A stretch of DNA of 64,000 bases from Sulfurimonas paralvinellae (GTDB lineage: Bacteria > Campylobacterota > Campylobacteria > Campylobacterales > Sulfurimonadaceae): the NCBI RefSeq assembly GCF_014905135.1, contig NZ_CP041406.1:186001-250000 (forward strand), read 5' to 3'. This document shows, one piece after another, positions 2,697-14,308 of this stretch (its first letter is position 1; the number at the start of each line of letters is the position of its first letter). Under the pieces are notes generated by a model. That model made no database searches. It was not told the DNA's origin and saw only the letters and a program-made list of their open reading frames with translations. The position numbers and the translations under genes were made by a program.

Positions 2697-3944
2697 CTAG
2701 ATTAAATAGTCTTGTCCGATTTTTTTAGCGTAAGCCTCTAGCATGGCATGCTCAAAATCATTGTTCGTTGCATACTGGTAGCCAAAGGTTTTACTCCAGA
2801 GTTCATGCGATTCCATACAGAGATAGAAAAAGACCTTGGAGTGCCATGGTTTGAAGCTCTCATAGGCATGCTTGAACATCTCTATCTTTGTCGTCTCCGG
2901 ATAGGATGTCTTGCCGCTTGCATCTTCATGCGGAATCTGTGTTATTTTAGAGTGAAATTCACGCTCACGCAGCTGTTTTATAACAGGTTTGATGAACGTC
3001 AATGTTCCAAAGCTAACGAGAGCCACCTCTGACGGGTCGAATTGTAGTATAAGTTTTTCATATACCGCTTGATATTCGTCAAGATAACCGACATACTCGA
3101 CTATAGGGTGAAAATGAAAACCGATTTTTATACCTTTGTCTGCAACGCGTCTTGCTGCACGCAGACGTTTGTCGAGTGAGGCTGTTAGGTGCTCTTCATT
3201 TTCTATGATAGTCGGGGTATTGAGACTCCAGGTGCAGAGTATGTTCTTTGGAACGTCGTTTTCAAGCAGGTAGCTGATATTGTCTGACTTGGTTTTAAAC
3301 TCCAAAATGACATTTGGATATTTTCTTGCAAAGGCAAAAAGTGCATCGAGAACTCCTTCACGGTTGCCAAACATCAGCGAATCAGATGCTTGCCCTGTTC
3401 CAATGTGATAGGTCTTGTTCGGGTCGAGTTCTAAATTGAGCAGTTTGTCTTTAAAGCTGCTGTCAAAGGTTATGGTGTTTTGATTGTAAAAGCTTTGAAT
3501 AGAACAGTATGAACAGTCAAATCCGCATGATTCGACCGCGTCAAGTGTCAAAAGATTACAGCAGCGTGTCTTTTCGCTCGCCACAGGGCACAGACCTAGT
3601 CCAAAACCCTCTTTTGCTTCTGTCTTAAAAGTGTACTTCTGCTCTTGTGGAATGTTTTTGAGTTCAAAATTTTCGTAAGAGTTTGGTGCATTGCGAATAG
3701 CTTCGTACTTCTCTCTGAGTTTTTTAAATGCAACTTTGCGTGAGGGGTGTTCAGGAAAGATCTCACTGATGCCTGCTTCATTCCACATCTCTAAATCACG
3801 GGCGATGTTGATTATTTGAATGAGTTCTTGGTGGGAAAATTTATACTTGAATGCCGCCTCACGGATGAACGATTGTTCATTTTGAGGCAGTTTGGAGAAA
3901 AATGTCTTAGTAATTGTATTGGTAAACTTTTCATTATAATTCAT
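2697..3944 (-). CDS. Radical SAM protein, spore photoproduct lyase (SplB) family
   Basis: A 415-residue protein with a CxxxCxxC [4Fe-4S] motif at C140, C144 and C147 (CGFDCSYC). The layout resembles the SPL family, which in spore formers reverses a thymine dimer by radical chemistry. Two features argue against that exact reaction. The tyrosine that follows the third cluster cysteine in classical SPL is Ser here, and where I place the classical hydrogen-donor cysteine the sequence reads GQASDSL. This is comparison from memory. The organism is not expected to make spores. The gene lies 23 bases after the exported small heat-shock protein gene and 7 before nnrS, suggesting one operon. Confidence 0.8.
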   Translation of the reverse strand: MNYNEKFTNTITKTFFSKLPQNEQSFIREAAFKYKFSHQELIQIINIARDLEMWNEAGISEIFPEHPSRKVAFKKLREKYEAIRNAPNSYENFELKNIPQEQKYTFKTEAKEGFGLGLCPVASEKTRCCNLLTLDAVESCGFDCSYCSIQSFYNQNTITFDSSFKDKLLNLELDPNKTYHIGTGQASDSLMFGNREGVLDALFAFARKYPNVILEFKTKSDNISYLLENDVPKNILCTWSLNTPTIIENEEHLTASLDKRLRAARRVADKGIKIGFHFHPIVEYVGYLDEYQAVYEKLILQFDPSEVALVSFGTLTFIKPVIKQLREREFHSKITQIPHEDASGKTSYPETTKIEMFKHAYESFKPWHSKVFFYLCMESHELWSKTFGYQYATNNDFEHAMLEAYAKKIGQDYLI

Positions 3945-13221: not shown

Positions 13222-13362
13222 TTATTTTGTATAAAGATCTGTACTTGGATGGTATGGTTTTGTGATGGATGGTTTTTTTACCGTTTTTGTATCGTAGTGA
13301 ACGATATTTTCTGCCTGTGCGGCAACGAATGCAAATGTTAGTGCTAATACGATTTTTGTCAT
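13222..13362 (-). CDS. Small secreted peptide of unknown function
   Basis: A 46-residue ORF starting MTKIVLALTFAFVAAQA, which reads as a complete Sec signal peptide with cleavage after AQA at residue 17. The mature product would be only 29 residues, basic and rich in Lys, Thr, Tyr and Pro, with no cysteine. The ATG at 13362 has AAGGA 8 bases upstream; the longer in-frame start at 13449 has no ribosome binding site. An FNR-type box and -10 element lie upstream, giving a leader of about 70 bases. I recognise no family. Confidence 0.65.
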   Translation of the reverse strand: MTKIVLALTFAFVAAQAENIVHYDTKTVKKPSITKPYHPSTDLYTK

Positions 13363-13439
13363 ATTTTTTCCTTTATATGGTAAGTTTTTTTGATATTTTT
13401 TAAATAAGACAATTTTTGTCCGATTTAAAACTTGGCAGA

Positions 13440-13481
13440 ATGATATCAAGTTATTTTTGTAAAAAAGTTGATATATATCAA
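13440..13481 (-). promoter_or_regulatory. FNR-type box with class II spacing to a -10 element
   Basis: TTGATATATATCAA (13468-13481) is a perfect TTGAT-N4-ATCAA site. Leftward, TATCAT (13445-13440) is centred 32 bases from the box centre. That is the spacing expected when an FNR/CRP-family activator binds at -41.5. Transcription would start near 13433 and read into the small secreted peptide gene. Which regulator binds is not known; the cysteine-free Crp/Fnr protein at 5407-6090 has a different recognition helix. Confidence 0.6.
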
Positions 13482-13491
13482 GAAATTGATT

Positions 13492-14193
13492 TTATCGCCA
13501 AATGATATTTTTGGCTTCTAACAGCAGTGATTTATCAAAATTTTTTTTAGCTTGTTTGAGGTCGCCGATGTTGTTTTGGGTCTCGCGAAAATCTTGAATG
13601 AAGTATGGCTGTTCATATCCTCTTGAGTGTAAATCTTTTATGATGGAATTGATGTCATGCTCATCCAAAAGATCTGCATGCAGAGTGGTGCGTACCTCAA
13701 ACTTTACATCCGATGCCATAAGCAGGTCAAGTGTTTGAGAAAACTCTCTGTATTTTCTAGAATGGGTTATTTGCTCAAATTTGTCTGCAGGTGCTTTGTA
13801 ATCAAGGGCTATATAATCTATGAGTTTGGCTTCAAGCAGTTTTTGCATCATTTGAGGATTGGTGCCGTTGGTGTCGAGTTTGATTAAAAATCCAAGTGCT
13901 TTGATAGCTTGGCAAAAGGGCTGGAGTTGATGAAGTGTTGCTTCACCTCCGGAGAGAACGACGCCTTCTAGCAGATTGACTCTGCTGCGTAGAAAGTCCA
14001 GTGCATCTTCAAATGTGTAATTACCGCTCTTTGCAAAGACAATATCTTTGTTATAGCAGTAATCACACCGCATATTGCATCCGCTGAACCAAAAAATAGC
14101 AGCGAGATGGTTAGGATAATCGAGATGCGTGAACTTCGTTATATCATAGATGACTTTATCGTTCTTTGAATTGAACCCGCTGTCTGTGTTCAC
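13492..14193 (-). CDS. nrdG: Anaerobic ribonucleotide reductase activating enzyme (NrdG-type radical SAM)
   Basis: A 233-residue radical SAM protein with CxxxCxxC at C39, C43 and C46 (CNMRCDYC) and VVLSGGEATLH downstream. These enzymes generate the glycyl radical on class III ribonucleotide reductase. It starts with GTG at 14193 after an AGGG, overlapping the glycyl-radical peptide ORF by 38 bases. No later ATG precedes the conserved region. It lies immediately downstream of nrdD and the peptide gene, forming a three-gene unit. Confidence 0.85.
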   Translation of the reverse strand: MNTDSGFNSKNDKVIYDITKFTHLDYPNHLAAIFWFSGCNMRCDYCYNKDIVFAKSGNYTFEDALDFLRSRVNLLEGVVLSGGEATLHQLQPFCQAIKALGFLIKLDTNGTNPQMMQKLLEAKLIDYIALDYKAPADKFEQITHSRKYREFSQTLDLLMASDVKFEVRTTLHADLLDEHDINSIIKDLHSRGYEQPYFIQDFRETQNNIGDLKQAKKNFDKSLLLEAKNIIWR

Positions 14194-14308
14194 CTGTTTT
14201 CCCTATGTTAAAGCTCTCAACAGGTCTATGGTAACCCATAACTCTTGTGTAGACAATACACTTTTGACGTTTACTCTCTAAAAGCATTAAAATATCTTCT
14301 TTACTCAT
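14156..14308 (-). CDS. Detached glycyl-radical loop of class III ribonucleotide reductase (50 residues)
   Basis: The product starts MSKEDILMLLESKRQK and contains YTRVMGYHRPVESFNIGK, then a basic tail. R-V-x-G-Y followed by F-N-x-G-K and E-x-x-x-R is the C-terminal glycyl-radical signature of NrdD; E. coli NrdD has RRVCGYLGS, PFNAGKQEE. Gly25 is the predicted radical site. The ATG at 14308 overlaps the nrdD stop as ATGA, and AAGGAG lies 7 bases upstream inside nrdD, so translation looks coupled. NrdD itself lacks this segment. The simplest reading is a split enzyme; a sequence error that split one gene is the main alternative. Confidence 0.75.
   Translation of the reverse strand: MSKEDILMLLESKRQKCIVYTRVMGYHRPVESFNIGKTGEHRQRVQFKER

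Follow-up and report, generated by a model that had tools for sequence, protein, structure and literature searches.

What does a short reading frame behind an FNR-type palindrome encode in Sulfurimonas paralvinellae, which regulators read its promoter, and when would the gene be switched on? The locus lies in a window of 64,000 nucleotides (the whole stretch of DNA analysed, G000:C1:186001-250000) from a genome of 2.08 Mb in 2 contigs. The regulation of respiration in free-living Campylobacterota has been described as an enigma (review, PMC6682613). Protein names used below come from family profiles, except norC/norB, nirJ, nirF and cobA, which were assigned by reading the sequences.

A small secreted peptide conserved in Sulfurimonas and Sulfuricurvum

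The features of the locus are collected in Table 1. The gene unit is probably monocistronic, consisting of the peptide gene alone, and its product is predicted to be a small Sec-exported peptide of 46 residues, of which 29 would be left after cleavage. Both the sequence and the alignments revealed a lysine in the n-region, a hydrophobic core and a small residue at position −1; cleavage is predicted after AQA, and Q16-A17 is invariant in the family alignments.

Table 1 Features of the peptide locus (positions are those of the window).
Feature	Position	Strand	Evidence
Secreted peptide gene, 46 aa (46 codons; start ATG 13362, stop 13222)	13222..13362, stop included	minus	ORF, Shine-Dalgarno sequence, homologues with pN/pS ~0.15
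Predicted signal peptide, codons 1-17, MTKIVLALTFAFVAAQA	13312..13362	minus	sequence, alignments; helix 2-19 in structure model
Predicted mature part, 29 aa, ENIVHYDTKTVKKPSITKPYHPSTDLYTK	13225..13311	minus	alignments; conserved VHYD and KPxHPxxDxY; unstructured in model
Ribosome-binding site AAAGGA	13369..13374	minus	sequence; kept in relatives
FNR/DNR-type palindrome TTGATATATATCAA, at about −41.5 (class II)	13468-13481		exact match, conservation, spacing
−10 hexamer TATCAT	13440-13445	minus	TATYAT or similar kept 32 bp from the FNR-type centre
Predicted transcription start	13433	minus	placed from the −10
23-bp dyad AATCGGACAAAAATTGTCTTATT, about +8 to +30	13403..13425	minus	before almost every copy; predicted Rrf2/IscR-like operator

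We searched genome contigs with a profile built from a closer subset of the alignment. The family was found in Sulfurimonas, Sulfuricurvum and some unclassified relatives, at 52 contig loci, with several copies in some genomes; it is present in about half of the same-genus genomes, at up to four copies each, and the 39 same-order genomes outside the genus gave weak matches only. Among the eight closest 46-residue copies pN/pS was 0.146, and in their mature part about 60% of synonymous sites have changed versus 7% of non-synonymous sites (pS 0.60, pN 0.074). These low values make it very likely that the peptide is translated and under purifying selection. An initial annotation of the window had proposed a secreted 46-residue peptide with a 29-residue mature part, and had set a homologue search as a test; the reading frame, its Shine-Dalgarno sequence, its signal peptide and its conservation in Sulfurimonas and Sulfuricurvum relatives all bear this out. 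The same annotation had called the mature peptide basic, which applies mildly to the window copy (5 K vs 3 D/E) and not to the family, whose composition (K+R 11%, D+E 15%) shows that basicity is no family trait.

Neither Pfam nor NCBIfam gave a match for the peptide, and the PDB gave no meaningful one. It resembles other small Sec-exported bacterial peptides in general kind only. In the predicted structure (pTM 0.27) the signal peptide forms a helix and the mature part is an unstructured tail. The peptide thus appears to represent a previously undescribed and unstudied family without known relatives. In four copies (L110, L133, L135 and L138) the KPxHP unit is duplicated.

Co-occurrence with cd1 nitrite reductase

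PF02239, which covers cd1 nitrite reductase as well as NirF-type proteins so that the cd1 count is one of NirS/NirF-type proteins, was found in 39 of 60 genomes. The peptide and a cd1 protein occurred together in 28 genomes, a cd1 protein alone in 11, neither in 21, and the peptide alone in none (Fisher p = 3e-8, from a test that treats genomes as independent and ignores shared ancestry, on a set in which some genomes are incomplete). Two genomes were counted as peptide-positive despite first-pass E-values of 0.03 (G012) and 0.1 (G016), the former because it keeps the family motif and has an exact dyad, and the latter for its profile match. On a rough Rrf2 tree the peptide-bearing genomes fall in several places, which removes shared ancestry from the co-occurrence only in part. 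Because 11 cd1-positive genomes have no detected peptide, the peptide is apparently not required for nitrite reduction.

Longer variants of the peptide (67 and 61 aa) were observed in G016 and G030 at the end of a nor-nirS-nirJ-nirF-cobA cluster, convergent to the cluster, and each stands behind its own FNR-type site; by inspection, a TATAAT lies 32 bp from that site in G030.

Since the conserved motifs (VHYD, KPNHPxxDxY) are rich in His, Tyr and Asp, metal binding is the most concrete guess for a function; these residues might hold a metal ion, possibly iron that NO has set free. We offer this metal-handling role as speculative, a doubtful possibility. Its main alternative is that the peptide works directly with nitrite or NO reductase, as a small accessory of either enzyme (a chaperone, inhibitor or assembly factor) and not as a metal binder. 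The restriction of the peptide to genomes with cd1 proteins and its position beside the nor-nir cluster in two genomes agree with an accessory; however, the peptide is usually unlinked to nir, several paralogues occur per genome, the 11 cd1-positive genomes do without it, and the Fe-S operator predicted below would be left unexplained. We judge an accessory role conceivable, and well short of likely.

The FNR-type promoter and its candidate activator

The initial annotation had reported an exact FNR-consensus palindrome with a TATCAT −10 at the class II spacing, and both parts withstood scrutiny. With one mismatch allowed, the window held 7 palindromes vs 6.95 expected from shuffles, and therefore the window alone could not decide whether the site is due to chance. 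Genome-wide, the exact palindrome occurs at 9 places vs 1 for the reversed control. Upstream of homologous genes it was present in exact form in 15 of 53 regions, vs 0.02 expected from dinucleotide shuffles, and with at most one mismatch in 28 of 53, vs 1.3 expected.

Those 28 regions were scanned for a −10 hexamer with at least 4/6 matches to TATAAT. Such a hexamer lay exactly 32 bp from the site in 79% of the regions, compared with 4% at 31 bp and 14% at 33 bp, and 32 bp was the best of all spacings tested. The spacing is kept in two promoter layouts: in the window type TATYAT stands upstream of the dyad, and in the other TAAAAT lies within it. A distance of 32 bp from palindrome centre to −10 is the class II activation spacing of CRP/FNR promoters; in the window it measures exactly 32.0 bp between centres, and the palindrome is centred near −41.5. 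A chance palindrome was rejected, since site and spacing are both conserved in the homologous upstream regions.

A near FNR-type site is missing from about half of the peptide copies, many of which carry an alternative conserved upstream element. This element, CTTAAAAC...GTAATTAAAAAGcGATAAGAA, stands just upstream of the dyad in the site-less loci L100, L105, L112, L116, L119, L121, L123 and L127. Elsewhere in the genome, a second exact TTGATATATATCAA is located at G000:C1:49967-49980, between a nitrite/sulfite reductase gene and an apparent TonB-receptor-like gene. Within one ORF of the window TTGAY-N4-RTCAA is also matched twice, at a distance of 80 bp (2989-3002 and 3069-3082), probably by chance.

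Three CRP/FNR proteins were found in the genome, and the N-terminal FNR cysteines are absent in all three. The CRP/FNR protein at G000:C1:645831-646475 has an E-T-L-S-R recognition helix, as expected for TTGAT, and this helix together with the absence of FNR cysteines is common to the 12 orthologues inspected, its own sequence included. With its CRP/FNR domains, E..SR helix and missing FNR cysteines, this protein resembles DNR and NnrR, which likewise are without these cysteines; the DNR consensus is the same TTGAT-type site (PMC1274295).

The looser pattern TTGAY-N4-RTCAA occurs at 18 places genome-wide, vs 4 in the control, with intergenic sites before napA, the norC-norB operon, ccoN, a nitrite/sulfite reductase gene and an operon that encodes a MIP18 Fe-S assembly protein. 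Two features are shared with DNR/NnrR regulons: TTGAT-N4-ATCAA sites in front of nor, nap and related genes, and a regulator that has the E..SR helix and no FNR cysteines. Unlike those regulons, the host here belongs to the Campylobacterota, a secreted peptide is among the predicted targets, and NO sensing is putative.

The initial annotation had named low oxygen as the inducing signal. An oxygen-sensing FNR with a labile Fe-S cluster would turn the gene on at low oxygen, and the exact consensus, the class II spacing and the same type of site before ccoN would all suit it; its cysteines, however, are missing from the three proteins found, and no FNR orthologue is known in Campylobacterota (review, PMC6682613). 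We regard oxygen sensing by such a protein as unlikely, and low oxygen as inducer is not upheld: the sites mark genes of nitrate, nitric oxide and microaerobic respiration, and the peptide gene tracks cd1. Because the FNR cysteines are lacking and sites precede napA, norC-norB and ccoN, a DNR/NnrR-like activator that responds to nitrogen oxides is more likely than one that senses oxygen.

The MIP18 operon (G000:C1:646488-648477; L052 3489-5477) stands behind the DNR-like regulator gene and an FNR-type site, and encodes a 115-aa protein, a 411-aa membrane protein and the MIP18 protein; Pfam gave no match for the first two. An Rrf2-type dyad also stands upstream of a relative of the 115-aa gene in G012 (L142).

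Genomic neighbourhood of the peptide genes

The small size, secretion and multiple copies of the peptide would also fit a signal, a bacteriocin or a modified (RiPP) peptide, and a radical-SAM gene adjoins about 10 copies. That gene, however, is missing here, and many genomes without the peptide have it; the neighbours of the peptide genes are varied and unrelated, and no immunity or export genes were seen. A RiPP precursor acted on by the neighbouring radical-SAM protein was rejected for want of co-occurrence, and we consider this whole class of functions very unlikely.

The 23-bp dyad and the Rrf2 regulator

Alignment of the upstream regions revealed a dyad, missed by the initial annotation, with the consensus AATCGGAYAAAATTnnTCYGATT, which is more conserved before peptide copies than the FNR-type site. 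Only three close matches (at most 2 mismatches) occur in this genome, upstream of tpx (thiol peroxidase), mrp/apbC (Fe-S carrier) and the peptide gene, which would link the peptide to Fe-S homeostasis. Matches were found in 52 of 60 same-genus genomes, the reversed control giving 3 in all, and the recurrent other targets in relatives are mrp, tpx and nifS (NifS cysteine desulfurase).

The AAT, GA, TC and ATT positions are near-invariant, while other facing positions are often unpaired: positions 5/19 pair in 25 of 54 copies and 8/16 in 11 of 54. Such a pattern, with the outer and GA/TC positions fixed and others often unpaired, suits a protein dimer, not an RNA stem. That it is instead an RNA hairpin in the 5' leader is highly improbable: it does fall within the predicted leader of the window copy, but it covers the −10 in other copies, the same motif precedes mrp, tpx and nifS, and its inner positions often fail to pair.

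The genome encodes a single Rrf2 protein (G000:C1:595891-596292; PF02082, 97 bits), with orthologues in 39 of 39 good-quality genomes and three cysteines invariant in 29 of 29 orthologues; these cysteines are predicted to bind an Fe-S cluster. The protein resembles the SUF regulator and IscR, yet scores far below the curated equivalog cut-offs (IscR 52.7 vs 207.55; SUF regulator 64.2 vs 110.65), and we therefore call it IscR-like, not IscR. Considering the target genes and the fact that this is the sole Rrf2 protein here, the dyad looks like the operator of this regulator.

The Rrf2 fold and the three invariant cysteines are points of likeness to IscR/SufR; control of Fe-S biogenesis genes may be another, as the dyad precedes nifS and mrp. 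Unlike IscR/SufR, the protein falls below the NCBIfam cut-offs and is encoded outside an isc/suf operon (none of the neighbouring ORFs looks like isc/suf genes), and no dyad lies upstream of its own gene. The core geometry of the dyad is like that of the type 1 IscR box of E. coli (GAC-N7-GTC), which we take as a lead only. The dyad here is 23 bp long, vs 25 bp for the type 1 IscR box (PMC4169559). NsrR is an Rrf2 repressor that acts together with an FNR-type site at nitrogen-oxide genes (PMC1274295), and the combination of a predicted Rrf2-type operator with an FNR-type site is shared with it; unlike NsrR, the protein found here gives a weak score (32 vs 182 bits), and the dyad targets are Fe-S and peroxide genes, with no hmp or ytfE seen among them. 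A literature search on Rrf2 or small proteins in Sulfurimonas found no papers.

The order is different in L134, L135, L136 and L138 (Sulfuricurvum and some relatives), where a dyad stands upstream of the FNR-type site; three of the four also have a second dyad-like repeat that overlaps the downstream side of that site. In these few copies the dyad could act differently.

Proposed mechanism

The overall best explanation, to which we assign a probability of about 0.6, is that a DNR-like activator and an IscR-like repressor control a periplasmic peptide. The family, the conserved sites, their spacing, the motif before mrp, nifS and tpx, and the cd1 co-occurrence are read from sequence; the assignment of regulators to these sites, the repression and the signals are inferred. 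The DNR/NnrR-like protein would bind the palindrome at −41.5 and recruit polymerase to the TATCAT −10 in class II fashion, and the IscR-like Rrf2 protein, sitting on the dyad from about +8 to +30, would keep transcription shut off as long as Fe-S clusters abound. Expression would then be expected in cells that respire nitrogen oxides and whose Fe-S clusters are damaged or in short supply. NO would produce both inputs at once, nitrogen-oxide respiration and a low Fe-S status, and the peptide would act in the periplasm, the compartment of cd1 nitrite reductase. The fullest version, in which the family binds iron or iron-nitrosyl freed by NO during denitrification and is made only when the nitrogen-oxide activator and loss of the Fe-S repressor coincide, is tentative and rather unlikely as a whole.

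The locus offers two testable candidate regulons, one DNR-like and one of an Fe-S Rrf2 protein, each with sites and a candidate protein. It also ties an unstudied peptide family to the step of denitrification that yields NO, in bacteria often found in sulfidic redox zones.

A split anaerobic ribonucleotide reductase nearby

Our literature search on a split class III NrdD found no paper. In the window, the glycyl-radical C-terminus (RVMGYHRP...) of the anaerobic ribonucleotide reductase is a separate 50-aa ORF (14156-14308, minus strand), whose ATG overlaps the nrdD stop (ATGA) and whose ribosome site lies inside the end of nrdD. As read from these ORFs, class III NrdD is split here, an arrangement that recalls the idea of GrcA/YfiD, and four relatives likewise have the 50-aa ORF as a frame of its own.
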